NCBI GenBank assembly: GCA_004369085.1
Contig: ML210250.1
Span: 36,790 to 100,789 of the forward strand
Direction: 5' to 3'
Length of the DNA: 64,000 nucleotides
Source: Coprinopsis marcescibilis
Taxonomy: Eukaryota; Basidiomycota; Agaricomycetes; Agaricales; Psathyrellaceae
Shown: piece after piece, positions 4,205 to 58,752 of the stretch
How the letters are laid out: every line of letters starts with the position of its first letter
How positions within the stretch are numbered: the stretch's first letter is position 1
Translations under genes and position numbers: made by a program
Notes under the pieces: generated by a model
The model's database searches: none
What the model saw: only the letters and a program-made list of their open reading frames with translations
Told to the model about the DNA's origin: nothing

Positions 4205-7200
4205 ATGGATCAGTCGACTGACATCGGCGGTATAATGAAGGACGCCAAGAAGGGGATGGACACCGACGCTCTGCAAACGGCCATCAAGCTCTTGAAGCAA
4301 ACTATCGATAATCACGATAGACAGATTGATGAGCACACACGAGCAATAGCGAGCTGCCTTATCATGAGGGCCTTCAACATGCGCTACTCCCGCTTCGGTT
4401 GGGTGGAAGATCTGGATCTATGCCAAAAGTACCTCTCAGGATGGGAAGCGCCCATTAACAGTCTCAGGGCAGTGCAAACGGTGTGTGGGCCTGGTTGTCG
4501 GTCGAAGCTGATATCTGAACTGACGGAAGACAATTCAGTTAAAGAGCGCTACGTCCCAGGCCATCTCGGTCTGTCCGTCACGGGTTAGGGAGGCCTACGA
4601 TCTAATGGAGAAGCATCGCGCGTCTATAGATATTGACAAGATGGATTACGCGATCTGCATCGCATGTGAGGCACTCGCTTCCGAAGAGGAGAACGACCCC
4701 TCCCAGAGGTGTCAGATGCTGCTTGCATTGGCAAACGCCTTTAGTCTGAAGGCGGTGCAACAAGGCAATGAAGGACGGGAGGATCTAGACCTGGCGATGG
4801 AGCAGCTTGGCGATGCGAAAGAGCTGCTAGGCGGCGTGGGGCCCCTAGCTGGAGTAGTCGCCACATCGATGGCACATATAGGATGGATGATGTTCCTGGA
4901 ACACGGGGACCTCAATGGGCTTGCAGAAGTAAGCGACGCTAATCAGTGGGAGGGGAAGGATCCGATTTGCCGGATGGGGAAAGATCTTCACGCCCGCGGT
5001 ACCAGAATGATTCAAGAAGGTTGTTACCAAATCGACCAGGCTATTCATCTCCTTCGAAGTGCACTTGCCCACAGACTCCCACCGCACGTGCGACGTGCAG
5101 AGACCTTGACAAACCTCGGCTACGCCCTCCTCACTCGATATCTCATAAAGGGTTCCGATGAAGATTTGAAGGATGCGATCGAGAGTTCTCGGGAAGCCAC
5201 AGATATTCGACCTCCCCCCAACCCGTATCACGACTCATCAGCCACCAACCTCTCTCGTGCCCTCTGGGTGCGATACGAGTCCATCAAGAACCCTGACGAC
5301 CTCGACATCTCCATTTCGCTGTGCCGTAAAGTACTTGAAACGACCCTCGGCTTCGACATCGACCTAGCCACCCTACTTCACAACCTCGCACGAGGTGTCT
5401 TCGCTCGATTCAGCGGCAATGGATCAATTGAGGATTTGGAAGAATGCCTCTCCGCAAATCGACAATCCTTGGTAGCGTTGAACGAAACGCACAGCCAAGA
5501 CTCCCACCTCCACGGAGACATTTGCAACAACCTCTCGGATGCACTTCGGGCCAGGTTCCAGTTGCAAGGCAGCTTCGCTGACATGGAGGAGTGCATCGTC
5601 CTTGGGAGGCAGGCACTTCTCACAAGGCCGATTGGTCATCCAGACCGGCATAACACGCTCGATAACCTGGCGGAATGCTTGCATACTCGTTTCCTTCGCC
5701 GGGGTGACTTTGAGGATCTTAGTGAATGCATTTCCCTATCACGAGAGTCACTCAAGTGCCAGCCATATAACACGAGTCCACCCCGCAATCGCCGACGAAC
5801 GATGATCTGTCTGGGCCAGTACTTGCTGAAACATTTTCAGGCAGTGTCCCAGGACATGTTGCTCTTGGACGAGTCTATTCGAGTTCTACGTGAGGCGCTG
5901 GAGCATTATCCAGATCTTCCACCGGATGTGCCGGTGCTGGCGGCCCTCGCGGGATCCCTTTCGGAGCGCTACCAGACCCGCCGGGACGTGAACGATATTG
6001 AAGATGCAGTTGCGCTCTTTCGTCAAGCGCTAGCATTGGCGCCACCATCAAGTCCCCGTTACCCGTCATCTCTCAGCAACCTGGGAGCCGCGCTGTATCA
6101 CCGCTTCGAGGCAAAAGAGGATCCGGGGGATATTGAAGAGGGTATTATGTATCTCCAAAGGGCTTCCTCTTCGATTAATGCCGCCCATTATCATTGGTGC
6201 ACAGTCCAAGGAAGCCTCTTTTCAGCTCTCCGCGCCAAGTACTACCGGACGGGCCTAGAAGAACATTTTATGGAGGCATACAGCGTCATCGAGGCAACTG
6301 CCCAAAACGATGCAGGGCCCCTCTTGGAACGGTTCCGACTGTCTTGGATGTGGGGAAACTTTGGTAGAGCACGCGACCACCCTTCCACAATGGACGCCTA
6401 TCGCTATACAGCAGGGTTACTCCCCACCCTTGCCTCCCTCGATCTAACGCTATCCCAACGCCAAAACATTCTCAAGCTTTCATCCGATTTTGCAAACGAG
6501 GCTGTCCTGTATGCTATCGGAATCAAAGAACTCGAAGCAGCTGTTGTATTTTTCTCTACAGCTCGTTCGGTCTTCTGGACCCAGGCACTTCGTCTTCGCA
6601 CCCCCGTTGATAACCTAGCATCGTTCGATCCAGGACTCGCCGATGAATATCGCGCCGTGTCTCGACAGTTGGAGGCCGCTAGTCACGGAGGTGCTGCTCA
6701 TACAGACGATGCTCCATCTCGTTACTCGGATTCAACAGGGACATACTCGCTTGCACAGCGGCGCGACAAACTGCTCGATCGTATCAGGAACATCGAAGGT
6801 TTTCAAGATTTCCTCCTCCCTCCAACTTTCAACACCCTCAAGGATGCTGCACGACACGGCCCTGTTGTTTTCTTAAACTCCACCCCTGGAGGGTGCGATG
6901 CGGTTGTCATGAACGCCGGTGGATCTTTGCTTCACGTCCCATTACCCAAAATCACGCACGCCAAGCTGCATATGCTCAAGCGAGCGGTTCAGGAGTTGGC
7001 GCGGGGAGAACGAATCTGCACGGAGACTGTGCGTGATATAGATGATGGTCTGCTGGAGACTTATCGACTCAAGGCTCGCCGAAAACGAAGTCACTCAACG
7101 GACGATGACTTTCGTTTCATTTTGACTGTACTATGGACGGGGGTTGTCTTTCCTGTTGTAAAGGGTCTCGGCCTTCAGAAGGTAAGAGTGCCCATCGCTA

Positions 7201-8097
7201 AATGAATGCGTATGTTGTACTAACTCTCGAGGCGACTAGACCGATGCGCCTGTAAGAATATGGTGGTGCGCGTCTGGCGTATTCTGTTTCCTACCGATCC
7301 ACGCGGCTGGCGACTTTATGTCCGACGGTCCAATCACTTGCCTACATGACTATGTCATCTCTTCTTACTGTCACTCGCCTCAGGAACTCCTTACGCCACC
7401 CCCTGAAGCCTTATCCGATTATAAAGTCCTGGCCGTGATCGAACCAGAGGCCACAGGGATAGGCGCCGGTCCCCTTCCCAACACCTTGGACGAGCTCGAT
7501 AACATACGACGCCATATCCCCAGTCACGACAATCTGATACATTACATCGGGACAGGCGGCCCAAGTAAGTCAGCCACCAACGAAGATGCACTGAAGGCCA
7601 TTCGACAATCCTCCTTCGTTCATTTTGGCTGCCATGGGCTACAGCACCCGACAAACCCTCTGCAAAGTACGCTTTGCCTCAGCGGCGGAAAGCTGACGAT
7701 GAAGAAGATTATTCGAGAATGCCAAACATCGACGCCGTCGTTTGCGTTTCTCAGTGCGTGTCAAACAGCCATGAACGACGAGGATCGCCCGGACGAGTCT
7801 CTAAATCTTACCGCCACTATGATGTTTGCCGGTTTTAGAAGCGTCATTGGAACTATGTGGTAAGTTTTTGAGGGTTTCCAGCCCAAGTAGTCTCTGATGC
7901 AAGTATCTAGGTCGATCCACGATGCAGATGCACCGATAGTGGCTGATGTCTTTTATCGTTACCTGTTTCGCCATAGAGAGGAGATGGCCCCAGTGATTAC
8001 TGATGCTGCCAAAGGTCTGAGCCTTGCTGTGAAAGAGCTGAGAGATCAAGGAAAACACTTCAGTCGTTGGGTGCCGTTTGTGCATTTTGGATTGTGA
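4205..8097 (+). CDS. TPR-CHAT protein (caspase-like CHAT peptidase with tetratricopeptide repeats)
   Basis: Four exons fit in phase: 4205-4480, 4539-7181, 7240-7859 and 7911-8097, giving 1,241 residues. An N-terminal helical part (to about residue 150) is followed by many degenerate TPR units of the type LGxALxxRYxxxGxxEDLxxAIxLxRxAL to about residue 650, a linker, and a C-terminal CHAT domain. CHAT is a caspase-fold (clan CD) protease domain. The expected His is in HFGCHG (about residue 1105) and the expected Cys in FLSACQTA (about 1147), followed by the family signature AGFRSVIGTMWSIHDAD. Both catalytic residues are present, so activity is plausible. Fungal TPR-CHAT proteins are common in Agaricomycetes with unknown substrates; bacterial ones act in regulated proteolysis, some CRISPR-linked. 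Start chosen because a related N-terminus is repeated at 13246. Confidence 0.85.
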
Positions 8098-8329
8098 TAA
8101 GCAAACGATTGAAATGCAAATCGAATGATAATCATTGGCAAGCTTCTGTTTGGAGCTAACGTGCTGTTATACATAAGAAACATGCAGACGTGCCAGCGGT
8201 AGGGAATAAAGCTTGAGCCGGACACAAAGAATTAGCCTCCGCATGGGATCGAACCGGCGACGTCCCAATCGAGCACGTCCTTCTCACGGATATCCCAACC
8301 TATTGTTGTTACCCTCATTACAACATCGC
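8098..8329. other. Intergenic with tRNA-like B-box, conserved with copy B
   Basis: 3' flank of the CHAT gene, closely matched by 17427-17660. On the minus strand at about 8235-8285 it contains a perfect-looking pol III B-box (GGTTCGATCCC) preceded by a possible anticodon-like hairpin. No acceptor stem could be closed, so it is not called a tRNA gene. Confidence 0.35.
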
Positions 8330-13586: not shown

Positions 13587-14963
13587 CTAAACACCACTAT
13601 CTGCATGACGTGATGTCGAGTCCGCGGAGCCTGCGATTAGAACCCTCACTGGAGGTTTCCTTGAATCTCCAGACAGCTGGTTGGAGTTGTCGCTTGGAGA
13701 CTGGCTTGGGTCACTGAGCACGGTGGTTAGCTGCAAGGAGGAGGTTATCCCGGTGGTAGTGACCCCAGATCTTCCCGTTCCCCTTCCTTGGCTTGTAGAG
13801 GTAGTGCCGGATGTGTCTGTCGCACCATTAGCGAATGAACGCGCCGACAAATTGTCATTCTAACACACCATCATCGCTCTCGTCGCTGGTGGAGTTGTCA
13901 TTGCCATTGTGGCGCTTTCGATTTCTCCAAACTCTGTATAGATAGGTAACGAGAACCAAACTGTTGCATGTTAGGAGGGGCAGAATAACCTGGTTGAAGC
14001 TTGAGATTCAGCAGAAGTGAGATCCCTAAAGGCGAAAAACGGACCTGAAAATTGCCGCTGAAGGTGATGGGAATTGGGTCGAACGTCTGCATCATCTCGC
14101 GCGGAAAGTTTATCAGCCGAACGATATTAGCGGCATGGATAGCTTCAACTGCGACGAGAGATGTCCCGAAAGCGAAACACGCAATCACCACGTTCCGGTC
14201 GGCCCTTGGGAGTTTCATTCTCGAGAGAATGTAGCTCGGCCAAGCAGCGAGCCATACGGTCGCGGAGATGCCAACTGTGAGGTAATGTAGTTCACAATTG
14301 TATCATTCAGACTAATCGCATGGATTGAACGTACGTGTTAGCTGCACAATTGCTGTCCGTGTGGTATAGCCACAAGCTTCGGAAGGTCGCGCCGGCAGTG
14401 GGATCCCGCAGAGAAAGACTGCGGAAAGTAGAACCGCAACGAGCATGAGCACGAAGACGCAGAAAGAGCCTTGAGAGATAGTTTTGTTGACCCCTGGCGG
14501 GATTATGCGAATAGTAGTGATGAGGATGGAGAATCTCGCAGTCCTAATAGAATTAGTAAAATGCATCGACGTAGCTGGGTTGACCCTACCACATGGCTAA
14601 TGGGGTGATAAAGAATGGAATCCAGCTAAGAAAGTTCTGGACGACTTCGGAATATGTGTCTGCCAGAGATGTCAGCTTGAGAATGTCTTATGAGGTTCCT
14701 GCCTACCGCGGCTTCTCAGAATGTGAGAGATGTAGTATGCAGCTATGAAAGCTGCAAAAAGGGCGGATACAAGCGCCCAGAAGTCATCCCACCACAGCTG
14801 TCGCCTTTTGAATCGATGGCAGAGCCGGACACACGTCACAATTATAGAAAGAAAGTGAAGGGAAACAACGGCCGCTATAGTAGGAGCCTACAATGAGCGC
14901 CAGACGTGACATGTCAAAGTAGGACTCACTAAAGGTGCGGTTTATGTCTTCCAGCGAGGGCAT
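13587..14963 (-). CDS. Rhodopsin-domain-like seven-helix membrane protein (copy R2)
   Basis: Paralogue of the gene at 1579, in the same orientation and exon structure. The first exon starts at ATG 14963 (MPSLEDINRTF), with a phase-1 donor gtgagt and an acceptor 'ctatag' directly before CGGCCGTTG. Helix-1/2 text reads VTCVRLCHRF and LWWDDFWALVS. Further on are NKTISQGSFCVFVLML, MKLPRADRNVVIACFAFG and the Ser/Thr-rich tail ending at 13587. Predicted length is about 345 residues. I found no inactivating change; one Tyr-to-Cys change lies before the LWWDD motif. The flank upstream of the start (14964-15960) is shared with copies R1 and R6. Confidence 0.72.
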
Positions 14964-16984
14964 GGTTGGCTTTAGGGTTAACACCAGAACACTACATGCC
15001 AGTTGAGAAGGAAGGGGGCGACGACTTTATATACATACCATACTCCTGGGTGGACTTATCGTAAGACGATCTGGCAGTGAGCCCTCATGTGTGTGAGCGC
15101 TGTCGAAAGTATTCAGAATGCCAAACATGGCTAGGCTGTGGGCATCCGAGTTTTATTTATATCCACTTGAATGAATTCAGTCGATTAACGTTTGCTTAGC
15201 AATACACACAGCATTCCAGGTCGAGTCCGAGTGCTGAAAGCATGTGAATTGGAGCCTTTCAGAATCGATGGAAGGCCCAGGCCCTGAACAGGGCCAGAGG
15301 CACGAGGCCTTCTCAGGAAAATGTACCACTGCCCTTCAACCAGGATGGACCTCCAGGGCTTACAGTGCTTGGCGTAATGTTTTGCACAACGAAGTTTGTG
15401 CAAACGGTTTGACGTGCCACGAGAGCGCCGTTTCACACCTCTGCTGCCCGGCAAGTGCTTTTTTTTAGCAGAGTCCCCATGGACACGGCTTTTGAAACTC
15501 ATCCTAGGCTGTATATAACCCCTTATATCTCTGGTATCGAACCAACATATCCAGTTGCAACTTCCCGTTCAAAGAAAGAATCGATAAAATTTTGTGGACC
15601 GTAAAGCGTGACATTGGCAGTCACATTTGATCTGAAAGTTGAAATTCGCAAAACGCGTTGAAGACATTATGCAAAGCTCTGTAAAGATGCCTTCCGCAAG
15701 AACATTGATTACCTTTGTTCACCGATCCCAAACTACTGGTATCGCTTTCGTAACGTCAGGTACATAAGTATGTAAGACTTCTCCGTCCGTGTCGACGGTC
15801 AACTCAGTCACGGACTACTACATCGTAGCGCCGGACTCTGAGTTGGGTTCAACGGTCACATCTATACAGGATCTCCATCTCATGGGCAATTGATATTAGA
15901 TCCAGAGATAAATTTTACCTTCCTTTATCGCTCAAACAGACTCAGGCTCTGAGCCCAGCCATTCAGGGTTCTACGGTGTTGGTGTGATTTTGAGCGGCAG
16001 ATATGATTCAACGGATGGCAAGAGATTTGCGGCATGCCGGCAAGGATCTGAAATGCCGGAGCGTGCTGAGAGATGGAATAATCTACATACATTAAAGACT
16101 CAAGGAGTCGTAAGTACGAAGGCTAAATAATCGAGCGGCCGTACATACCCAAACGAAACCGGTGGGTACCGTCAGTCCATAGTATCGTCTGCTGAATCGC
16201 ATGAGAAATATTGCATGTAAGTTTATTTTGTACATAGTACGTATGTACACCAAAAGTGACCGCCAAAATGATAGGGGGATGACGAGAAGAGTTCAGTGTG
16301 ACGGATTTCTTTTTAAATGCGATGCATTCAAAAGAGCGCACATATGAAGGCCAAGAGTCGAGCCGTTTGCTTCCAGCAGGATGGTGCACCAAGTCACAGG
16401 AATAACCTCGTTCAGCACTCGTTCAGTGATTCCAACATCAACTGCTCCCATTCTGGCACCATCCAATCCCTCCATGCACCAATGAACCCACCCAGCGCCA
16501 TGCATCTGAGGACACTGGGACACTGGGCACTGGGCACGCAGCCATACGAATAACAACTCGCCCTCCAACTGCGGAGAATAGTGTGGCAAGATCTCGGAGG
16601 TGGCGGAGGGTCATGGGTCATGGGTCATGGGTCATGGGGAAGGGAATTCTGAAAGGAGGATTGATTCAAAACGACGAAGGCGAAGAAAAAGATGCGACGG
16701 CATCATATGCTCAGCACCCAACAACATAACATACCACCTCAGAGGTTAGAACCCGAAGTCGGGCAACCGTTGTAAGAAAGCATAGAATCTCGTACCGCGC
16801 GCGTCCCAAGTCTTGTCACCCAGCGAACATTCCATCTCGTTCAGTCCAGCCACGACACTTGTACAGCCCAGTCAGTATACGTGCAGTCCGTAGTCTGCAG
16901 TCTGCAGTCCCTGAAGGCGTCGATGAGAGTCCTGGCTCAGTACCTGTTTTCGAGGACGATGAGCAGGATCATCTATCCACCCAA
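14964..16984. other. 7TM cassette flank and gene-free spacer
   Basis: 14964-15960 matches the upstream flank of R1. 16110-16260 matches, in inverted orientation, 44090-44230 upstream of R6. A (GGTCATG)4 run lies at 16610-16638. No gene is supported. Confidence 0.5.
16610..16638 (+). repeat. (GGTCATG)4 tandem repeat
   Basis: Four near-perfect heptamer copies in a gene-free stretch. Confidence 0.85.
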
Positions 16985-17426
16985 CCAACGTTTGATCATC
17001 ATTTGTCTCAGCGGCGGCAAGCTGACGATGAAGAAGATCATTCGAGAATGCCAGACATCGGCGCCATCGTTTGCGTTTCTCAGTGCGTGTCAAACAGCCA
17101 TGAACGACGAGGATCGCCCGGACGAGTCTCTAAATCTTACCGCCACTATGATGTTTGCCGGTTTTAGAAGCGTCATTGGAACTATGTGGTAAGTTTTTGA
17201 GGGTTTCCAGCCCAAGTAGTCTCTGATGCAAGTATCTAGTTCGATCCACGATGCAGATACACCGATAGTAGCTGATGTCTTTTATCGTTACCTGTTTTGC
17301 CGTGGAGAGGAGATGGACCCGGTGATTACTGATGCTGCCAAAGGTCTGAGCCTTGCTGTGAGAGAGCTGAGAGATCAAGGAAAACATTTCGGTCGTTGGG
17401 TGCCATTTGTACATTTTGGATTGTGA
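16985..17426 (+). pseudogene. TPR-CHAT C-terminal fragment (copy B)
   Basis: Nearly identical to 7658-8097 of the intact gene, including the intron (17189-17239) that interrupts the Trp codon of GTMW. The fragment begins just after the catalytic His motif (HFGCHG is absent). It keeps the Cys motif FLSACQTA, so it cannot be an active CHAT protease. The codon completed across the intron now reads Cys instead of Trp (GTMC-SIHD). Upstream sequence is unrelated, and no start or TPR region is attached. The high similarity compared with the rest of the duplicated block suggests a late duplication or gene conversion. Confidence 0.8.
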
Positions 17427-17788
17427 TAAGCAAACTAGATTGATGTACAAATTGAAGGTTACTCATTGACAAGCTTCTGTTTGGAATAGGAATAAACGTA
17501 TTCTTAGACAAAGAAAAATGCAGACGTGCCAGCGGTAGGGAATAAGCTTGAGCCAGACGGGACACAAGAAAACAGCCTTGCGGCGGGATCGAACCGGCGA
17601 CATCCTATCTGGCACATACTTCTCACGGGTATCCGCCCAATCATTGCTCGATCGTTGCTTTGCAGTTACCCTCAAGTTACCCTCAAGTTACCCTCATTAC
17701 AAGCCTCGTGGATACCTATCTCGCTATTCATCGCTCTTTGCAAGCACAACCACCTCCTGCAGAACTCTGATCTCAAAACTGCGGAAAT
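17427..17788. other. Spacer with tRNA-like B-box and short CAAGTTACCCT repeat
   Basis: Matches 8098-8330 of copy A. Carries the same minus-strand B-box-like element (about 17578-17630) and a small tandem repeat 'ttaccctcaag' at 17665-17695 just upstream of the F-box gene. Confidence 0.4.
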
Positions 17789-25522: not shown

Positions 25523-26997
25523 ATGGGTTGCGTCCAGTCCACCGGCGTTGACGACGAGGCAAAGGCCCGTGAGTATGGGACTCCTGTTTCCGTGGAGAAG
25601 AGCTGACGGATATGGCTGCAGGAAATGACGAGATTGAGAACCAGCTGAAGCGAGACAAGATGATGGCGAAGAACGAAATCAAGATGTTGTTGCTGGGAGC
25701 TGGAGAGTCGGGCAAGGTCAGTTCAGGCTGCTGCATTCCGGGGCGTACCTGACAGTTGGTGCAGTCGACAGTGCTGAAGCAGATGAAGCTTATCCATCAC
25801 GGAGGATACTCTGAACAGGAGAAGGATTCATACAGGGAAATTATCTTTTCCAATACCGTTCAGTCTATGCGGTGAGCAGAGTCAGTTTGTTGGATAATGT
25901 TTTGTATTCAGCTCTTTGTAGTGCTATTCTCGATGCCCTGTCACAGCTCGACCTCAGCCTGCAACCGCCCAACGACGCACGACGGGCGACCATTCTGGCT
26001 TTGCCTGGGCAAATCGAGGCTGACGTGCTGCCCCGCGACGTTGCTGACGCCATCCGAAACCTCTGGCGCGATCCCGCAGTCAAGGAGGCCGTCCGCCGCT
26101 CGCGCGAATTCCAGCTGAACGACAGCGCAGTCTACTACTTCAACGGCATCGACCGCATTGCTGCCCCTGGCTACATGCCTACGGATCAGGATATCCTTCG
26201 CAGTCGAGTCAAGACGACGGGTATCACCGAGACGATGTTCAAGGTTGGCGACTTGACGTACAAGCTCTTCGACGTCGGTGGACAGCGAAGTGAACGTAAG
26301 AAGTGGATTCACTGCTTCGAGAACGTCACCGCGCTCGTCTTCCTTGTCAGTTTGAGCGAGTATGACCAGATGTTGTACGAGGACGAGAGTGTGGTATGTG
26401 TCGTTTGCTGTCCTTCTCCGCTGTCGGTCGCTGATTGCTCGGTCTCTCGCGCTCTAGAACCGCATGCAGGAGGCCTTGACCCTCTTCGACTCAATATGTA
26501 ACTCGCGGTGGTTCGTCAAGACATCAATCGTACGTTCCCCTCCTTTCGCTCGTGCCCGAAGCGTTCATGAGGAACTAACGGCTTGCGCTCCCACACGCAC
26601 ATGTAGATATTGTTCTTGAACAAGATTGATCTGTTCGCCGAGAAGCTTCCAAGATCACCTTTGGCTGATTACTTCCCGGATTTCAACGGAGGGGACAATT
26701 ACGATGCCGCTTGCGACTATCTCCTCCACCGCTTTGTGTCGCTCAACCAGAGCGCTGCCACGAAGCAGATTTACGCACACTATACGTGTGCAACGGATAC
26801 TCAGCAAATCAAATGTGCGTTACCGCTGTCTTTCCGATTGTTCGGAGATGGAATGCTGACAGTTGTATTTTCTTTCTTTCCCTTCCCTCCGCGTTCGCAT
26901 CATCGCGATTTCGTTGTGATTGGTAACAATAGTCGTGTTGAGTGCGATCCAGGATATCCTCCTCCAGCTGCACCTGCGGGAGTGCGGTTTGCTATAG
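25523..26997 (+). CDS. Heterotrimeric G-protein alpha subunit
   Basis: Seven exons join cleanly in phase: 25523-25568, 25622-25716, 25765-25871, 25922-26393, 26458-26529, 26607-26814, 26933-26997. They give 354 residues, the standard length. MGCVQS at the N-terminus is the N-myristoylation and palmitoylation signal. GTPase motifs are all present: P-loop GAGESGKST, switch I with RVKTTGIT (the ADP-ribosylatable Arg), switch [18 protein letters not shown] for guanine specificity, and TCATDT. The protein ends CGLL, with the Cys at -4 as in Gi-type (pertussis-sensitive) and fungal group I subunits. It should sit on the inner face of the plasma membrane, coupling seven-helix receptors to cAMP or MAP-kinase signalling in mating and growth. 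The gene symbol is left blank because fungal naming varies by species. A pyrimidine-rich leader precedes the ATG. Confidence 0.96.
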
Positions 26998-39258: not shown

Positions 39259-40155
39259 GCCTCAGGGTCACCCTGGATTTCTGCTGTCGACTGATATACA
39301 CCGTGTTCCCAGGCATTATGCTTTGGGACATCGCCCAAGAATATGTGAATATGTAATTTCACTTTGTGGTTTGACATGTACTTGTTTGTGGATCTCGATG
39401 CGGTGTCCTAAAACTCTTCTGCATCCAAAAGACCTGACGAGTTCAAGATCGTTCCGTACCATCTCGGACCACGGCCTCTCAGTGGCTCATTCGGAGTCAC
39501 TGTTTGTCTATGATGCGTACGCTTTAGGTTATATGATCAATTGAATTGAATTGAATTGAATTGCAAAGGCTGGTTGGTATGCCAGTGCAAAGCGACTATC
39601 GGAGCTTCGCAATCGATGTTCCCCCAGGGACGATTTGGGACTCCGAGAGAGATGTTAGAACTCAATAGCGTTGTGCATGGAGAGATACATAAACAACGCA
39701 TGTAAAAGCTGTGAACTCTGTGAAAGCGCCGCACATCAGGGTTACGTTTCGTCGGGAACAGAGGCGGGGACCTGAAGCACCATTTAAACTTTTACCATTC
39801 CGTTGGTGCGGCATACTGGGCGCTCTGATCCCCTCAGACACAAGCTGTCGTCTTGACGCCAGCAAGTTTGGCCTCCCCTCGACCGTATACCAGCCACGGC
39901 ACTGTGTTAGGCTCAACTTCAGCACAATCTGCGTGAATGCCTTGTGGGTTGATCTGTATGCACATTCTTGAAGTGTAATCGAAGAGGGCTCATAATGCAC
40001 CAAATCATCAGCACGTGAACAGTGCACAGGTGACAACGCAGTTTACGCAATCGACGGCCACAGGTCCGGAATCGGAACAGCAGGGGAACCTGCTCATCGC
40101 GCATATCTACCTTGGTCGCCTTGACCAGAGCCACCAACTATCCCTCGCTCGTTTC
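39259..40155. other. Intergenic with (AATTG)n microsatellite
   Basis: No gene recognised. A pentamer microsatellite lies at 39537-39563. Confidence 0.5.
39537..39563 (+). repeat. (AATTG)5 microsatellite
   Basis: Five uninterrupted AATTG units downstream of the F-box gene. Confidence 0.95.
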
Positions 40156-41578
40156 ATGCTTTCTCCAATCCAGGTTGCTTTCGGTGTGTTTTCCTCTGTG
40201 TGGTCGTAACGAGACCTCAGCTGACCATGCTCTCTCGTTTACAGTGGTCGTTGTCGCTCTTTACCTTCTTTGCGCTGTCCTCACCTGCATCCGCCTCGCC
40301 CATCGATTTCAACGGAGTCAACTATGGTGGGATGACTTTTGGGCAGGCCTGGCTGCCTTGAGCGGGACTTTCATCGCCGGACTATACATAGCAATTGTCC
40401 TGATCAAGGACAGGCGTAAGTCATTCCCGCCTCAAGTCTTTCGATGACACTAAACGTCCAAAGGAGAACTACCCCAGATTACGCAGAGCTTTTTAAACTG
40501 GGCAGGGTTTTTCGGTAATACTGTGTCAACTTGGTGCGCCTTCGTTTCCTTGCATCGCTGTCGTCGCTGTAGTTCTCACTGAGTTGTAACACATCCAGGG
40601 CCGCGCGATACTCCATTCTCACCACGATCATTCGGATACTGCCTACCGGAGCAAATAGAGCAATAACGAAAGTGTCGTTTTGCATTATGGGTCCAATGTC
40701 GCTCGCTATCATCTTAGCACACATCTTCATGTGTGGATTACCAGTACCCTCGTCAACCACAGCATGCGGCTTGCCAATTCGCAGCATCATCCTTCAGCTC
40801 ACTTGTGAGCCACAGTTCCTGCTGCACGGTGCACCTCACTCACTAAACCACTATGCGTTATCACAGGTGGCCTCACAGCGATCGCCTGGCTCGTAGTGTG
40901 GCCAATATACATCCTATGGCGCATGAAACTTCCAAGGACCCATCGCAACTTGATTGTCGCCTGTTTCGCGTCCGCCGTGTCCCTTGCTGTGATTGAGATA
41001 CTCCATGCCAACTTCCTTGTCAAATTCTCCAACACCCCAACAGAGGTTTTGAGATCCCCTGCGTTCAACCCGGTCCCATTGACCTTCACGGGGAACTTTC
41101 AGGTTGGTCCCCTTCTGTCATCTCGTGGCTCGCTAGCCTAAGCCTACCACGCAGTCGATATTTGCAATGTTCTGTTGTAACAACTTGGTCCTTGTCACCT
41201 TCATGTATCGAATCTGGCGCAACAAACGGGACGGCTCAGAGGGTGAAAGCGAAACCGAGACGTCCTCGGACAAGTCATCGTCGGGTGAGTGTCTTCTGAT
41301 TAAGTGGTAGCTTGGACAACACGCACACAGTCTAACCAAACACCTTCGCCGTTGCAGTTATCTCTGGAGGAGCGAATACAAGCGATAAAACAGGAGACAG
41401 CAATCCAAGTCGCAGTACGACCATGGGAATCTTTTCTTCCGAGTTATCACATTTCACGACTGTTCTCACCAACTCCCAGGACGACCAGTCCGCCAGTGTT
41501 CCGTCAGATCTATCCGCTGTGTCAGCATCAGTTCATAAAGTTCGGATACATGATTCAGGGGATGGTTCTCGCAAATAA
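40156..41578 (+). CDS. Rhodopsin-domain-like seven-helix membrane protein (copy R4)
   Basis: Start ATG 40156 (MLSPIQVAF). A phase-1 donor gtgtgt joins to VVVVALYLLCAVLTCIRLAHRF, then QLWWDDFWAGLAALSG. Next exon uses acceptor 'ccaaag' to give ELPQITQSFLNWAGFF. Helix segments ILTTIIRILPTGANRAITK, MKLPRTHRNLIVACFASAV and LTFTGNFQ-SIFAMFCCNN follow, then an acidic tail (GESETETSSDKSSS) and a last exon ending SGDGSRK with the stop at 41578. Exon phases match the other copies. It is intact, and between R3 and R6 in divergence. Confidence 0.75.
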
Positions 41579-44906: not shown

Positions 44907-46264
44907 ATGGCCTCGCTGGAAGACATGAAAAGCGCTTTTAGTGAGTACTACTTTGACATCGTGTCATGTCTGGGGCTCATTGCAGGATCCGACTATGTAT
45001 AGCGGCCGTGGTTTCCCTTCATTTTCTCTCTATAGTTGTGACGTGTGTCCGGCTGTATCATCGATTCAAAAGGCGACAGCTGTGGTGGGATGACTTCTGG
45101 GCGCTCGCATCCGCCCTTTTTGCAGCTTTCATAGCTGCATACTACATCTCTCATATTCTGAGAGGCCGCAGTAGGCAGAAACAATTCATAAGACGTCCTC
45201 AAGCTGACATCTCTGGCAGACACATATTCCGAAGTCGTCCAGAACTTTCTTAGCTGGATTCCATTCTTTATCACCCCATTAGCCATCTGGTAAGATCAAC
45301 GTAGCTAGGTCGACGCATTTACTGACTCTATTAGGACTGCGCGGTTCTCCATCCTCGTCACTACTGTTCGCATAATTCCGCCAGGGGTCAACAAAACTAT
45401 CTCTCAAGGCTCTTTCTGCGGCTTCGTGCTTATGCTCATTGCTGTTCTGATTTCCAAAGTCTTCCTCTGTGGGATCCCACTGCCGGCGCGACCTTCTGAG
45501 GCTTGTGTCTATACCACACGGACAGCAATTGTGCAGCTAACACGTACGTTCAAACCATGCGATTAGCCTGAATGATACAATTGTGAACCACATTACCTTA
45601 CAGTTGGCATATCCGCGACCGTATGGCTCGCTGCTTGGCCGAGCTACATTCTCTCGAGAATGAAACTGCCAAAGGCCGACAGGAACGTGGTCATTGCGTG
45701 TTTTGCTTTCGGGACGTCTCTCGTCGCAGTTGAAACTATCCATGCCGTTAATATCGTTCGGCTGATGAACCACCCGCGCGATATGATGCGGACGTTCAAC
45801 TCAATTCCCATCACTTTCAGCGGCAATTTTCAGGTCCGTTGTTCGCCTTTAGGGTTCTCACTTCTGCTGAATCTCAAGCTTCAACTAGGTTATTCTGGCC
45901 CTCCTAACATGCAACAGTTTGGTTCTCGTTACTTACCTCTACAGAGTTTGGAGAAATCGAAAGCGCCATAATGGTAATGACAACTCCACCAGCGACGAGA
46001 GCGATGATGGTGAGTGAGAATGACAATCGGACGCGTTCATTCGCTAATTGTGCGACAGACACATCAGGCGCTATCTCTACAAGCCAAGGAAGTGGGACGG
46101 GAAGATCTGGGGTCACTAACACCGGGATGAGCTCCTCCCTGCATGTTACCACCGTCCTCAGTGACCCAAGCCAGTCTCCAAGCGACAACTCCAACCAGCT
46201 GTCTGATGATTCTAGGAAACCTCCAGTGAGGGTTCAAATCGAGGCCTCCGCGGACTCGACATAA
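44907..46264 (+). CDS. Rhodopsin-domain-like seven-helix membrane protein (copy R6)
   Basis: Reference copy of the family here. Seven exons add up exactly: 44907-44940, 45003-45170, 45220-45289, 45335-45543, 45604-45833, 45889-46009, 46059-46264, giving 345 residues. N-terminus MASLEDMKSAF; helix 1 AVVSLHFLSIVVTCVRLYHR; LWWDDFWALASALF; VVQNFLSWIPFFITPLAIW; VRIIPPGVNKTISQGSF; VGISATVWLAAWPSYILSRM; ACFAFGTSLVAVETIHAVNI; then VILALLTCNSLVLVTYLYRV and an acidic, Ser/Thr-rich tail. Located in the plasma membrane by inference. It is an inverted near-copy of R1 and R2 and lies head-to-tail before the MFS gene. Confidence 0.82.
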
Positions 46265-49353: not shown

Positions 49354-50051
49354 TCGCGGCTCACGACAAGTGGTTCAGACATCCATTGTTATGTAGATTT
49401 GTGTCCCAGATATGGCTCTTTTACTACTTAAATAAATGATTCGACATTTGTAGAAATTGGGGGAGTGATAAAGAACTTTTGATTAGCACTTGTCCACGAG
49501 CTAGTAAAACAACTTTCCAAATAGGTTGTTCCCAGATGGAGTAGTCCGCGGGGATACCCCAGGCGCGTGTACTGACTGGGCTGGCTCGGTCGCGTCGAGC
49601 TGCTAGGCAATGGGCACAGGCAAAGGGTGTGCCAGTATGACTGGGTAGCACAGCCACGGGCTCGATCTAATCTACATAATCTAATCCAATCGGGCGGGGC
49701 GGTGGTACTGTGACCTGGGTCGATTGAGAAGTCCAGTTAAAGCGCAAACAAAGATAGAACAGGCGCTAAATTCATGAAATCCAGAACACCCTCAAGGCCT
49801 CGTGGTTGGTTTGCACATTTTTCACTCCATAATAACATTGGGAACACACACAGTCACCAAATTTACAAAGGGAGCCGACCACTGTCCTTCGATATTGGAA
49901 GCGGGCCAGAGAATAAGAGTCATGTACTGGGCGAGAAAAGGGAAATAGAATACGAATACAAAGGGACCGTTGAGAACAGCCACGCGTTGATTGAACGGGG
50001 CAACCTAGTCCTGCCTCAATTGCTCGTTGGAGTCCGGGATGGTGGCGGGCT
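49354..50051. other. Intergenic; repeat 6 remnant of the RHHPGH gene at the right edge
   Basis: Contains a dispersed GATTAGATT-type element at 49648-49690 (minus). At about 50010-50060 (minus) an out-of-frame copy of the RHHPGH repeat (VEARHHPGLQRAIEAG) lies just past the S1 stop. No other gene seen. Confidence 0.45.
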
Positions 50052-50711
50052 TCAACCTCTGCAAGTAGTTTTATTTAGCAGCTGACAGCATGACTCGGTC
50101 AAAGACACATACTGGTTGGGGTCCTTTATGCCGATGTCCAAATTGTGTCCAGGGTGATGGCGGGCATCGAGTCGTTCTGGTCCTTAATCAGTGGGTAGCT
50201 TGAGGCATGATACGGATGTGTCTCACCGTTTCGCTTCAGGTTGTATGATTTATCATCATGACCAGGATGATGACGCGGATCAAGTTCAACTAAGGGGTAC
50301 CAGGCGGGTCAGGTTAGATTTATGTTCGGCGTATACCTCTGCCATTAAGCTTACTGTCTGGGATCTTAACGCCAATATTACCAATGGGTTGGTCAGAGAT
50401 TGCGTGTCCTGGGTGATGTCTGGCGAACAGCTCGTCTAAATACATCTCCAGAATCAGCACGGTACAAAGCGGGAGCTCGTGAATCTTACCGGCTACATCG
50501 CGCCTTGGGTTCCCAAAGCCCAGATCCAAATTGTGGCCTGGGTGGTGACGACGCTCAACCTCTAGATCTGCGGCAGCATGAATGAAGCTACCACAAAAAG
50601 GGGAGCGCATCGAGAAAGCTCACCTCTCGGAGACGTAACAGGAGCAGGAGCGGCGAGAACTGTAGACACCAAGGTCAAGGAGAGAGTCAAAAAAGAAAGG
50701 GTGAACTTCAT
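50052..50711 (-). CDS. Secreted RHHPGH-repeat protein S1
   Basis: Not a family I recognise. Exon 1 (50624-50711) encodes a signal peptide (MKFTLSFLTLSLTLVSTVLA, cleavage near AAPAP). Then come one-repeat exons 50490-50567, 50355-50435, 50227-50289 and one starting at 50182 (or 50176). Every intron is phase 1. The repeats read VERRHHPGHNLDLGF, LFARHHPGHAISD, LDPRHHPGHDDK and LDARHHPGHNLDIGI: a variable acidic lead, a basic residue, His-His-Pro-Gly-His, then a variable tail. Dibasic sites (ERR, NPRR, LKR) could be Kex2 cuts. Reading through the last exon gives a stop at 50052. A TATA-like element lies 64-73 bp before the ATG. Possible roles are a processed peptide precursor or a metal-binding secreted protein; both are inference. 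Confidence 0.7.
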
Positions 50712-50743
50712 GGGGAGGATGAAAAACTAGGCTGAACCAAGAG

Positions 50744-50784
50744 TTTGCTGAGGCTATTGTATATTTACTTAGCCTTTTTATATA
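50744..50784 (-). promoter_or_regulatory. Promoter/leader of S1 (TATA-like box plus shared leader motif)
   Basis: On the minus strand TATATAAAAAGGCT occupies 50771-50784, about 70 bp upstream of the ATG. The leader motif CCTCAGCAA (50745-50753) is shared with the S2 leader, suggesting common origin and perhaps co-regulation. Confidence 0.5.
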
Positions 50785-52095
50785 AACGGGGAGGACGCCA
50801 AGGCATTTCAAGAGTAGGCAGTCATCTCAGCCCAGCTTGATACCGCGATAACCGAGCACTGGTGACCGATATCTTGTAGAGGCCGCTAACGCACGGGGAT
50901 CGACAGCCTGGAAATTACGGGTTACTCACATGCAGACCAAGGCGACACTTGGCAGGATTTTCCGCATCTATTTTTCCGCATTTTAGTCATGCAATTCTGG
51001 AGCAGCTCGCGTATGAGGAGCTCTCCCTGTCACGGCCTCGGCCTTGATAATGTTGACTTGTGAGGAACATGAGGGATGAATCCTGGCTTGCAAGAATGAG
51101 GCATATCCGCTGGGATGTCTATCAGGGATAACGTGGTCCGATTGGGGCGTGTAAGCACTGCAGCTTCAAAGAAATTCGATGATTCTCGTTGAGGATCAGT
51201 GCGGCTCAGGCTGGAAATTGAAGGATGCCAGCCTCTGTTAGTCAAGACCGAAGCAGAGACACATAGCAACTAGGTGTGTCTTACTGTGCTTGAAAGGAGA
51301 CAGACATGGTCGCCATAGGCTCTGATATAAGCTTGTCCGTCGTAGCGGAAAACCGAGGGTGTGGAACATCAATTGGATTTGTCGCACAAGTCATTGTCCT
51401 AACGTACCTCAGAGCATAAAGGCGGTTACTATCTCGGGTTCCTGAAAGTGCATATGGCAATCAACGTCGCCAAGCGAGTAAGTAAGCGGTCTCAACGCCA
51501 TGACCGTAGGCCGAGGCATATATGCGCTGAGGAGAGTCAGAGGTCCAGGGTTCCCTGTCTGTCAGATACGTGATCGCGTTGCTCTGACATTTGGATCAGT
51601 GGGCTCCGAGTTTAAGCTGAGCCCAGGACCCGCTATCATGAAACCTCGCATCACAAAGTTGCCAACTTCAAAGACTTTTTAGACAGGAGAAAACGTATGG
51701 GAGGAGGTCATATCTACGTTATCAACACCGTCATCATGCAACTCAAACCTTGTTATTCGTGTAGCACTTGATTTGACCACATGTCAAATCTATCTCACAG
51801 CCAGCTGCGAGCGACGTTTCACGCGTATATGATCTCTTGGCCACTCAACTGCTAGTCTGTTACGAAGCTCTGACATCCACTGTTGCTTGTGACTCGCAGG
51901 AACGGAATCAGAGACTTCAAGTTGTTCAGATAACTTGTTCGGATAAGGAGAGGGGTACATTCATGAGAACACCAGCTGGGTTGGCTGCCTATGTACATAC
52001 ATGCATGTCTGTGCATAGAGCGAATTATAAAACGAAGTAATACATTGGTACGAATCGGCGAATGCCGTGTCAATAAACAGAGTCTAAATACATTC
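50785..52095. other. Intergenic between the two RHHPGH genes
   Basis: About 1.3 kb without a supportable gene. Small open frames (for example minus 51030-51269) lack a signal peptide, repeats or splice context. Confidence 0.45.
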
Positions 52096-52967
52096 TCAGA
52101 CTGCGGGGAATGGAAGAAATCGGCGAACCCGACGTCAGTATGGAGGATGTTGAGCTCGTAACTGCCGGGACTCACCACTGTTGGCCTTAACGCCGTGGCC
52201 TGGATGATTGCGGCTCTCAAGAGTCAAGTCTAGTAGAAGAAAGCGGTGACCCCAACGTCAGTATCGACTATTTTGCGCTCGGATCGGTCGGGCTCACCAT
52301 TATTGGCTTTAACGGTGTCGTGACTACGTATCTGAACCTCGGCATTGTCATGGCCTGGGTGATGACGGCGCTCAAGGCCCAAGTCTACTGGAAGAAATTG
52401 GTGAACCTAACGTCAGTATCGTGTATCTTGGGTTCGTATCGGCCTAGACTCACCACTGTTTGCCTGAACGGCGTGGCCTGGATGATGGCGGCCCTCAAGA
52501 GTCAAGTCTAGTAGAAGAAAGCGGTGATCCCAACATCAGTATCGACAATTTTGCGCTCGGATCGGTCGGGCTCACCATTATTGGCTTTAACGGTGTCGTG
52601 ACTCCGTATCTGGACCTCGGCATTGTCGTGGCCTGGGTGATGACGACGCTCGGCGGGCAAGTCTAAGTAATAATCGGTTAAAGCAATGGCTGTTAATAAA
52701 CATGAAATGTCGTACTGGGCAAGAATTTCCCGCCAGAGGTGGTGGGAAGGTCGCCAAGCTCGGTATCGCGTCTATCAAAGTTTCCAGTGTGGTTTCGAGC
52801 CTCTAACTGCACGATCTCTGTATGGAGGGAGTTATTACCAGTACCTCGAAGGGGGTCCGAGCTGGCGACTGACCTCGCTTTGGAGACGCGACATTGTGAG
52901 TAGGGGCTGCGAGTACAGCGGGTACCAGAGATAGAGACATAATCAACAAGGATAAGGAGAGTTTCAT
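52096..52967 (-). CDS. Secreted RHHPGH-repeat protein S2
   Basis: Seven exons, all separated by phase-1 introns: 52874-52967, 52716-52817, 52576-52662, 52454-52507, 52298-52387, 52176-52229, 52096-52100. The total is 161 residues, with every junction in frame and a clean TGA. Exon 1 is a signal peptide (MKLSLSLLIMSLSLVPAVLA) ending ASPKR, a likely Kex2 site. Exon 2 has the divergent unit LEARNHTGNFDRRD. Exons 3 and 5 encode ERRHHPGHDNAEVQIRS followed by HDTVKANN. Exons 4 and 6 encode DLTLEGRHHPGHAVQANS and DLTLESRNHPGHGVKANS. The basic residue before each His-x-Pro-Gly-His could be a protease site, giving several histidine-rich peptides. No cysteine is present. Paralogous to S1 by signal peptide, intron phase and motif. 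Function unknown. Confidence 0.8.
52176..52662 (-). repeat. Tandem duplication of a two-exon unit inside S2
   Basis: Two copies (about 52176-52387 and 52454-52662, each with its inner intron, joined by another intron) are highly similar over both exons and introns, with a unit near 275 bp. The long exons (87 and 90 nt) are almost identical, as are the short ones (54 and 54 nt). Confidence 0.85.
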
Positions 52968-53014
52968 GGTGAAGATGATGGGCCGCTTGTGGAATGCTTT
53001 GACGATGCAATGGG

Positions 53015-53052
53015 TTGCTGAGGATTACATCAAGTTATCCAGCCCTTTTATA
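53015..53052 (-). promoter_or_regulatory. Promoter/leader of S2 (TATA box plus shared leader motif)
   Basis: TATAAAAG on the minus strand at 53045-53052, about 80 bp before the ATG. CCTCAGCAA at 53015-53023 is the same leader motif as in S1. Confidence 0.55.
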
Positions 53053-54274
53053 CAGCCCTAGGCCGTCCATGGCGTCTTCGTCGCAAGGGTATATTACAAA
53101 AGGCAAGCAGTCAGCAGCGGCTGAGAGAGACTGTACCTACGAGGGCCGAGAACTGAGATTGTTGCAGAATTGTAGCGATAAAAGGTAGATTCCTCCGCTT
53201 CAACACTTGGAGAAGCCACCAATCGGTGATAATGGTGATAATTCTGAAGCCATCCGAGGGTCGGACGTTCTTCCATAGGAGTTGGCATGATTTTTGTCAA
53301 TAAATCCTCAGTGTTTCAGGGACTGGGACCCACCCTGTCAGGGCTTCGGCAATGATTTTTGATCGTTGACGATCCCTTGGCGGGGGTTGACTCAGTGAGC
53401 TAGTTAGGCTTACAAAATGAGGCACTTCTGCCCTTCGGCGGATACTTACTGTACTGGCCATTGCTATTCGGTCACAAGTTACAACGTGGGCCGGCAGGCA
53501 TGAAGCTTCTTTCTGCCAGACGTGCGATCATGAATATTAGATTCCATGGCGCTAAGGAGGGACAAGAAATACCATTTCATTCTCTTTCTGCGTATTTCTA
53601 ATCTCAATCGGTACTCGATCGACGTTCGTGCAAAGAGTCAATACTTTGGTTTGACTCGGAATAGTAGTGGCGCAATATTCGGGGATTTGTCAGCATATAT
53701 TGATGCGCATATCCCGCCGTTTCATGCACACTAGCGGCGGGCAGGGGCGGCAGGTATGGGCGGCTTCGGCACAACACTAATTCGGAATTAGGGACTTCGT
53801 GTCTCTCCAAGAAGGGCGTTAGAACACGGATATATACCACATTGGTGAGTAATTTGTCTCTATACCCATGGCCGCAGCCCGACTCAGGTACGCAGGCATG
53901 CGCAGGGTTAAGTCTGGGAAATCTCGGTCGATAAAGTTCTTCCGTCGAAGGAGAAGCAGCCAAGGTGCTCGAACAGCCCTGGATACTCATATCACCAGTT
54001 TCAATCTCGTTGACGTCAAATGGCTTTTCCTCTGACTGAGTGTACTCTGATCAAACTTGTATTTCAAAAACTAATGTAAGTATGCTATAAAAACACTGGG
54101 CATCCGTTACAAATCCTGTTAAAAGTCAACAGTCGGCAAACTGAGGGAAACACAAAGGAAAGAGGCAGTGATAATGCGTCGCAATATCTTCGCCCAAGGC
54201 TCTGAAGCCTTTGATCGAGTCATTTACCGTCGGAAACCGTTCCACAAGACACTACTGAGCATTCCGCTCTGCTA
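53053..54274. other. Intergenic, nothing recognised
   Basis: No gene or repeat I can support; several short frames on both strands look random. Confidence 0.4.
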
Positions 54275-56484: not shown

Positions 56485-58752
56485 TTAGGTACCGTGAGGA
56501 AGGGTGTTGTAGAGCGGGCAGAGCCCATCCCATGCGGCTGCATCAAAGTGTCAGCGAAGAAATACATCCGTTCGAAGTTCAAGGACTTACTTGGCGGGTT
56601 GAAGGCGGCGACGCTCGGAACATCCTCAGCAAACACAACCGAGAGACCCCTGTGGAGGAGAGAGGAATGAGTCAGCGATGATCAGGGAAGCCGAAGCACG
56701 AGCTGGCTTACAAGACCAAATGCCAATCAATGTGGCTGGAGAATGAAAGTTTGTCAGACAAAGTGAGCGGTGATCATTAAGGGACGGTGGCGTACCAATG
56801 CATGATCCAGGGACCAGCATTGTCAGTGCGGAATCGGATGGTGACGTTGTCGCTGGCTCCACCAATGCTGACAACGTCGCGGACAGGGGGGTTGACAAAG
56901 TTGTAGGTCGAGCTTCCGGCGCTGCGGACAACGTGGAAGGCATGCTGGATTGGGTAGGGAAGTTAGACTCCAAGGCCAGTAAGAACGAGTCGGAGACTTA
57001 CACCGTGAAGATGCATTGGGTGCTAGGAATGGAATGATAAGAACAGGAACAAGAGCGGAAATAGGATAGCCAAGGACTTACAGGGTTTCCGGCCGCACCT
57101 GGCATGGAAAGCTCGATGTTCGAGTTCTTGGGGAGGACGTAAATGCTACCGGCAGGGAGCAAGTCTTGAGCGGTATGGGCTCCGCTCATAATCTGAAGCA
57201 TAACAGGAAGAGTGGGCTCGTCGAAGGGGGCGCCGTTGACGTGGAACTTGAGTGTCGGGCCATTGAACGCGATCTGGAAGTTGATGGCGACATCAACATC
57301 GCCCAGGGTAAGTCCGCCGGGCATAGGGTGGCCCAAAGGTCTCAGATTCGCCTCGTTGAGCGGGTTGCTGTCCGGAGCCTGTGCAGTAACTGGGTCGACT
57401 GCGGGTGCACCGATGTATCGCAAGATAGCAGAGTTGCGGCCACCAGTGAAGCCTGCGGCGCCAACGCTGGGGTCGGACCTGACCCAGTAGTTATCGACGG
57501 GCTGGTTGGCGTTGAGGATGAATGAGTAGCGCTGGCCGGCAAAGATGCGGATGGAGTCGACGGTATGAGGTTCGTGGTTGACTGAGTCGACCTCGATGAT
57601 GGTCTATTCGAGTGCGTCAGTCTCTATACAGCTCACGTTTTCAGGATGAGAGGCTTACCATGGTGTGTCCGTCGATGGAAAATTTGTAGTTGGGATTGCA
57701 GGAGAGGGAGACCAGACGCATACGATAGCGCCTTCCTCGACGGACGTGGATCACTGCGAGTGGAACAACGGGACCGTCAACGTAACGGCCCTTTCCGTTG
57801 ATAAGAGTAGAGTCGGGAGCAGGGACGAGACCAGCAGAGGGAGCGGGAGCGTGATACCTGAGACTCTGGTCAGCATCACAATCGTACACTGTTCAATAAG
57901 AGCGCTTACCAGTCGGCAAGGGTGATAACCGTGTCCTCTGGTGTTAAATGCATATGTTAGTGAAAGTACCTCGACTTCGTTGAAGGAGAAATATGTACCG
58001 TTGTCAACGTCGTATCTGTATGATCGCCGTTAGCATCAGGAAGGGAATCAGAGGCCGGCTTGCACACCTGAAACGATGGGGATCAAACGGGTCGTAGACG
58101 ACCATGGCACCTCTCAAGCCGTCACAGTACTGGGACACTATATGTCACATCAGCGCCAACGTCATCCTTTGAAAGGTATGAACTCACAATAATGAGAATG
58201 GTACCAGAACGTTCCAGCCTGATTTTTGGCTCGGAACTTGTAAAGGAAAGAATGTCCAGGCGAGATGGGACATTGGGTGACACCAGCAGGGCCATCAGCC
58301 CAGGCGCTACCAGCTTGCAAGAAGCCATGCCAGTGCTGAGATACTCCTTTAGAAAGCGGTTTGAAAAGTAATAGAGAAAGTACGAACGATGGAGGTGGCG
58401 CGAAGCATGCTAGTGTCTGTAAGTTGATCGACCGTGTTCAGCATGAAAGTGCCGCCCTACGATTAGGATTAGTTGGGACATCGAATAATAGCGAAAGGAT
58501 GGAGGCATGCCTTGATATTACGAATCACAGGGCCAGGGAACGCGAGGGAGCTCGCAGTTGCACCAGCAAGGACGCCGCTGAGCAGACGTTGAGCGTACGC
58601 GCATGGGTTCGGGATAGAGCGCAGACTTACGACCGGCTGAAGCCATCGGGAGCGACGTTAGAGTTCCCGATGATGAGGTTGGCAATAGGGCCGATTGCCC
58701 CCCAAGTAAGGGGGACAAAAGGCAAGACGAGAAGGGAGGCAAGGTTCAGCAT
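56485..58752 (-). CDS. Laccase (multicopper oxidase)
   Basis: Intron-rich gene whose exons give a full laccase of about 520 residues. ATG 58752 starts the signal peptide [18 protein letters not shown], then mature [22 protein letters not shown]. Copper signatures: L1 [16 protein letters not shown]2 FWYHSHY then [10 protein letters not shown]3 HPMHLHGH with [11 protein letters not shown]4 [19 protein letters not shown]. The residue ten after the T1 Cys is Leu, so a medium-potential (class 2) copper site is expected. The C-terminus is [17 protein letters not shown]. It oxidises phenols with O2 and acts outside the cell in lignin or humus attack, pigment or detoxification. A TATA box is at 58813-58818 (minus). 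The HL-VLG junction uses a donor gtaagc four bases inside an earlier gt. Confidence 0.93.

Follow-up and report, generated by a model that had tools for sequence, protein, structure and literature searches.

The closest described systems are the kexin-processed repeat precursors (KEPs) of Agaricomycetes, which are small secreted precursors with a signal peptide and a basic residue before their repeats (PMC9769878, PMC7329392, PMC6339444), and published screens for them cut at dibasic sites (PMC9769878; PMC7329392). Three kex2 genes are stated for Coprinopsis cinerea and other agaricomycetes, and several products of three C. cinerea KEPs made in Pichia apparently arose from cleavage at a single Arg (PMC9769878). 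The Kex2 motif has been described as Arg at P1, Leu, Ile, Val, Ala or Pro at P4 and a variable P2, with the expanded form LxxR; Lys is the most favoured residue at P2, followed by Arg, Thr, Pro, Glu and Ile, and Asp is unfavourable at P3 (PMC8528282). At yeast-type Kex2 sites, acidic residues are recognised at P1' (PMC2515848). The expanded motif is also found in Kex2-processed pro-domain effectors, where LxxR marks the removal of an N-terminal pro-domain (PMC8528282). From the point of view of gene architecture, schistosome micro-exon genes are comparable, since they join a signal peptide to short symmetric exons of 6-36 bp in genes for secreted proteins, an arrangement that suits splice variation (PMC5825161). 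Two of the KEP papers (PMC6339444, PMC7329392) mention neither "intron" nor "exon" in their main text, and a literature search returned no paper joining "KEX2-processed repeat" with "intron" and "exon". Judged by title or by the beginning of the abstract, no fungal precursor with one repeat per exon was found, and none of the mentions of HHPGH concerned fungi, judged by title.

The two genes considered here come from Coprinopsis marcescibilis (Agaricales, Psathyrellaceae), as identified by protein search, and both are listed at NCBI as hypothetical proteins. They are neighbours on the minus strand, S1 (52967-52096) and S2 (50711 to about 50052), in a window of 64,000 nucleotides (the whole stretch of DNA that was analysed), and the locus sits on contig C105 (genome size 36.3 Mb), the NCBI contig of the pair having 100,789 bases. 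The initial annotation had proposed a gene pair in which a predicted signal-peptide exon is followed by small repeat exons, and this was confirmed, with corrections, by hand splicing and by the NCBI model of S1. The features are the following, with the evidence for each in brackets.

52874..52967, minus strand: S1 exon 1, predicted signal peptide and short pro-segment ending SPKR, MKLSLSLLIMSLSLVPAVLAAPTHNVASPKR (hand splicing, NCBI protein, hydropathy peak)
52716..52817, minus strand: S1 exon 2, degenerate copy LEAR-NHTGN and an RR downstream of it (hand splicing, copy alignment)
52576..52662, minus strand: S1 exon 3, copy AERR-HHPGH (hand splicing, copy alignment)
52454..52507, minus strand: S1 exon 4, copy LEGR-HHPGH (hand splicing, copy alignment)
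52298..52384, minus strand: S1 exon 5, copy LERR-HHPGH, recent tandem duplicate of exon 3 (hand splicing, repeat period)
52176..52229, minus strand: S1 exon 6, copy LESR-NHPGH, recent tandem duplicate of exon 4 (hand splicing, repeat period)
52096..52100, minus strand: S1 exon 7, final residue and stop, fitting the last V of the NCBI protein (hand splicing, NCBI protein)
50624..50711, minus strand: S2 exon 1, predicted signal peptide and short pro-segment ending SPR (hand splicing, NCBI protein, hydropathy)
50490..50567, minus strand: S2 exon 2, copy VERR-HHPGH (hand splicing, NCBI protein, copy alignment)
50355..50435, minus strand: S2 exon 3, copy LFAR-HHPGH (hand splicing, NCBI protein, copy alignment)
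50227..50289, minus strand: S2 exon 4, copy LDPR-HHPGH (hand splicing, NCBI protein, copy alignment)
50113..50176, minus strand: S2 exon 5, copy LDAR-HHPGH, a stretch that the NCBI model reads in another frame (hand splicing, copy alignment)
50005..50058, minus strand: S2 terminal ("sixth") core copy VEAR-HHPGL, or alternatively a frame-shifted tail (hand splicing)

The first five introns of S1 are GT..AG introns of 56, 53, 68, 69 and 68 nt, all in phase 1, and a last intron of 75 nt leads to the tiny exon with the stop. All five internal exons (102, 87, 54, 87 and 54 nt) are divisible by 3 and of phase 1-1. A branch-like YTRAY site was present in four of those first five introns; it was absent from the first intron of S1 and from that of S2. 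The NCBI model (FA15DRAFT_51795, 160 aa) has all 159 hand-spliced residues and, in addition, a V encoded by the last exon, so the same structure is obtained from an independent annotation. The 161-residue protein previously reported for S2 was probably this S1 model, its label differing from the present one. At the N-terminus of S1 a hydrophobic 12-mer reaches a KD value of 2.38, compared with 0.01 at most in the remaining protein; in S2 these values are 2.02 and 0.61. AlphaFold2 run on the single S1 sequence gave no confident fold (mean pLDDT 40.9), a low value from one sequence being weak evidence. In the degenerate copy of S1 (52716-52817), R-N-H-T-G-N, an N-glycosylation sequon, N-H-T, replaces the core.

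In S2 the introns measure 56, 54, 65 and 50 nt (phase 1) and the internal exons 78, 81, 63 and 64 nt, three of the four being divisible by 3. The donor of exon 5, GTATGT, is in phase 2, whereas the acceptor before the terminal copy needs phase 1; therefore, no GT-AG intron can join the terminal core (exon start 50058) in frame. The end at 50052 given earlier is the stop that is reached by reading through the last intron. Judged by eye from the sequence, the 3' end of the gene may consist of such a read-through to 50052, or an acceptor shifted by two bases may place the terminal copy in another frame. The NCBI model of S2 (154 aa) retains introns 2 and 4, both of which are open when retained, so the exon structure given for S2 is tentative. 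The rule of one core per exon with phase 1 on both sides applies to nearly all exons, the donor of S2 exon 5 being the exception. In each of the nine joined internal exons the core starts after four to six full codons, and in the unjoined S2 copy after three. S1 carries five core copies, one of them degenerate, and S2 four joined copies and one unjoined, where KEPs are defined by at least three similar repeats.

The core is more frequent at this locus than chance would give. Exact RHHPGH with CGN codons for Arg matched six times in the searchable part of the 36.3-Mb genome, always at the locus (backwards control, one match), and S2 exon 3 holds a further, seventh copy with AGA for Arg; with any Arg codon all seven matches were again at the locus. 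DNA coding for HHPGH matched 17 times in the genome, seven of them at the locus, with five matches for the backwards control, and the ten sites elsewhere were rejected as copies since none has Arg before the core. When up to three mismatches were allowed to the CGN-type RHHPGH pattern, 21 matches were found in the window, ten of them at the locus, whereas 100 shuffled versions averaged 8.77 (sd 2.85) and never exceeded 15. Used as a DNA query, the 3-kb locus matched only itself, so a wider gene family in this genome was rejected, and in protein searches of the genome all matches (five of five for S2, six of six for S1) were to the own exons of each query.

Protein searches among 5.8 billion proteins with S1, S2 and a two-sequence profile found no relative in another species. 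The S2 query gave one match among 8 candidates, S2 itself, and missed S1; the S1 query gave two among 278, S1 and, at E 0.57, S2; and the profile retrieved the same two among 839. Since the two sisters scarcely retrieve one another, the sensitivity of these searches is limited and distant homologues could be missed. Together with Pfam and NCBIfam scans, they agree with the earlier remark that no known family has this core. The one profile resemblance of note, below threshold, was to pro-TRH (PF05438), the top Pfam profile, with 22 bits (E 1.5e-4) for S1 and 13.4 bits (E 0.067) for spliced S2. This match was lost in all four core-shuffled versions of S1 and was kept, weakly (E 0.11), in one of the four spacer-shuffled versions; therefore, it needs both the core and its context. 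Weak profile matches to Rv0078B (E 0.29) and MinC (E 0.051) were set aside as chance.

Over the ten copies, Arg, the second His and Gly of the core are invariant, Pro is kept in nine, and the first and the last His in eight each; the first is replaced by Asn in two copies and the last by Asn or Leu in two. In eight of the copies, leaving out S1 exons 5 and 6 as recent duplicates, the core had a pS of 0.85 and a pN of 0.09, compared with 0.77 and 0.75 in the four following codons and 0.76 and 0.50 in the four preceding ones, ratios that serve as a guide only because the copies were picked by motif, which lowers the pN of the core by choice, and because synonymous change is near saturation. Per-column values agree with this pattern of core and flanks. 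As the core codons differ mostly synonymously, it is the peptide core that is selected, and a cause at the nucleotide level, such as a splicing signal, was rejected because synonymous positions vary. Moreover, the position of the core varies little in exons defined by splicing while its codons vary, which argues for selection on amino acids and against recent copying or a DNA signal. S1 and S2 are a real, selected pair of predicted secreted repeat precursors, found so far in this species only.

The origin of the pair was examined in the signal codons and in the upstream regions:

52968..53060, minus strand: S1 upstream region with TATAAAA, which aligns with the S2 upstream region
50712..50790, minus strand: upstream region of S2, in which TATAAAA and CCTCAGCAA are shared with S1

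Over the first 22 signal codons, S1 and S2 differ by 14.5 synonymous changes in 18.7 sites and by 9.5 non-synonymous changes in 47.3. Because the signal codons match and the upstream motifs TATAAAA and CCTCAGCAA are common to both, S1 and S2 are taken to have arisen as a tandem pair long ago. Additionally, a recent duplication took place inside S1, in which two exons recur together with two introns at a period of 278 bases (1.9 copies). In this duplication (52176-52662), introns 3 and 5 differ at 3 of 68 bases, exons 3 and 5 at 9 of 87 and exons 4 and 6 at 5 of 54; gene conversion or selection for change is possible where the introns are more alike than the exons.

The residues preceding the ten cores are LEAR, AERR, LEGR, LERR, LESR, VERR, LFAR, LDPR, LDAR and VEAR. 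The basic residue noted earlier is an Arg in every copy and part of a dibasic pair in three; the other seven sites are monobasic LxxR or VxxR, which departs from the dibasic pattern published for KEPs. P1 is Arg and P4 aliphatic in all ten (seven L, two V, one A), as in the expanded Kex2 site. In the modelled proteins, P4 belongs to LIVAPM for nine of nine core Arg and for 6 of the 22 other Arg or Lys (Fisher p 0.00025, for copies that are not independent). By contrast, P2 is among the listed favoured residues in four of the ten sites (three R, one P) and is otherwise A (four), G or S; P3 is Asp in two of the ten, and P1' is His or Asn. The proprotein-convertase P-domain was found at three genome loci, in four matches; two of these contain stops, which is expected where introns are read through. 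The number of loci agrees with the agaricomycete count of three kex2 genes.

The reading that best fits these results, to which we give a probability of about 0.55, is that S1 and S2 are KEP-like repeat precursors processed by kexin mostly at monobasic sites, and an old tandem pair. The Kex2-type processing suggested in the initial annotation is thus retained as the best fit to the signal-like N-terminus, the repeats, the basic residue and the P-domain loci, but with few dibasic sites and with P2 and P1' mostly not those preferred by Kex2, the fit resting on the aliphatic P4 of LxxR. The likeness to KEPs lies in the small, presumably secreted precursor, the predicted signal peptide and the basic residue before the repeats, and convertase-domain genes are present in the C. 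marcescibilis genome as well; unlike KEPs with KR or RR, both genes have mostly monobasic LxxR, unconserved tails after the core and an exon of its own for each copy. LxxR is shared with the pro-domain effectors, but here it stands before every repeat. Schistosome micro-exon genes are similar in architecture, but the internal exons of S1 and S2, at 54-102 nt, are longer.

We infer secretion, cleavage, the identity of the peptides and a role toward other organisms. The predicted signal peptide would send unfolded S1 and S2 precursors into the secretory pathway, where kexin would cleave behind the Arg of the [L/V/A]-x-x-R that directly precedes each core, and also at a few dibasic sites. Several short peptides beginning with HHPGH or NHPGH would be released, and trimming by carboxypeptidase would follow, as in known KEPs. 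Selection would keep the core while the tails behind it drift. New copies would be gained through duplication of the whole exon-intron unit with the frame kept, such duplication being frame-safe because nearly all exons are of phase 1-1. Against kexin, peptides cut at the core Arg alone would have long unconserved tails, P2, P3 and P1' misfit, and the NCBI model of S2 is spliced differently. A further suggestion, possible though unlikely, is a modular precursor of symmetric exon cassettes, in which exon skipping would alter how many HHPGH peptides are made, and in which mix, with the frame intact; its release at LxxR would be invisible to KEP screens limited to dibasic sites, and such genes may form a class of peptide genes so far uncounted.

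The protein might instead stay whole and, secreted and disordered, serve through its many His residues as a metal binder or as a surface protein, with the repeats providing many binding sites. The metal-binding alternative had been raised earlier from the many His residues, of which there are 15 in the 160 residues of S1 and 12 in the 125 of spliced S2, with no Cys, and the middle His of the core is kept in all ten copies. Nothing was found in its favour beyond this His content: the first and last core His are each replaced in two copies, yet the Arg before them never varies. Arg is not a usual metal ligand. An aliphatic residue three positions before the core Arg is likewise present in all ten copies, and the Pfam and NCBIfam scans gave no match of S1 or S2 to metal-binding families. 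An intact metal-binding protein seems unlikely.

Processing could be real and yet be carried out by another monobasic protease, for example an aspartic protease of the yapsin type, or outside the cell, a reading that overlaps with the kexin one. The poor P2 and P1' would suit it, and yeast has a yapsin specific for monobasic sites (from a title in the reference list of PMC2515848), but the conserved aliphatic P4 is a preference of Kex2 (PMC8528282), and we consider another protease quite unlikely.

It also seems rather improbable that these are lineage-specific genes without a function, or with a lost one, and that S2 at least is decaying. The protein searches found no homologue outside C. marcescibilis, the terminal copy of S2 is out of frame, its NCBI model retains introns and the copy in S1 exon 2 is degenerate. 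However, across copies and both genes the core combines near-saturated synonymous change with little amino-acid change, the signal codons changed mostly synonymously, and TATAAAA is common to both genes.

Pro-TRH resembles S1 and S2 in repeating R-x-H-P-G within a secreted precursor. Its defining core is [KR]R-Q-H-P-G-[KR]R. A TRH-like prohormone releasing xHP-amide tripeptides that mimic the animal hormone is nevertheless far-fetched, as both proteins score below the 27.8-bit cut-off, the NCBI model of S2 gives no match at E<=1, and Gln before HPG and a basic residue after Gly are absent from all ten copies. Since the residues that define TRH are missing, the resemblance is read as convergence of repeat prohormones. 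A genome search for the amidating-enzyme domain Cu2_monoox_C gave no match, but no control matched either, so this result is uninformative. Dikaritin RiPP precursors of the ustiloxin type also join a signal peptide to kexin-processed repeats, as proposed for S1 and S2, and were rejected because the core has no Tyr and no match to UstYa (DUF3328, PF11807) falls on contig C105; the eight PF11807 matches of the genome are on contigs C59, C72 and C280.

Other features were observed in the window. A long gene judged by eye to be TPR/CHAT-like (4524-7863, plus strand) is followed, at a distance of about 9 kb, by a near-copy of its 3' portion (16776-17192, plus strand), and the antisense ORFs beside them (7801-8166 and 17130-17462) resemble each other. 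Four membrane-protein ORFs look alike by eye (2494-2883 and 13898-14302, minus strand; 40034-40447 and 45576-45971, plus strand), those at 13898-14302 and 45576-45971 being near-identical, which suggests a dispersed gene family. An exon of a multicopper oxidase, probably a laccase (Pfam Cu-oxidase, E 7.4e-18), is located at 56998-57603 (minus strand), and an ORF resembling a G-protein alpha subunit, by eye, at 25815-26501 (plus strand).

Published surveys of fungal secreted peptides look in annotated proteins for repeats bounded by dibasic sites. Because of the short exons, the possibly mis-spliced model of S2 and the mostly single-Arg sites, gene pairs like this one would tend to escape them. 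Should the peptides exist, their HHPGH core would be new among secreted peptides and strongly conserved, and it would come from a mushroom genus in which C. cinerea offers tools for peptide detection and gene knockout.
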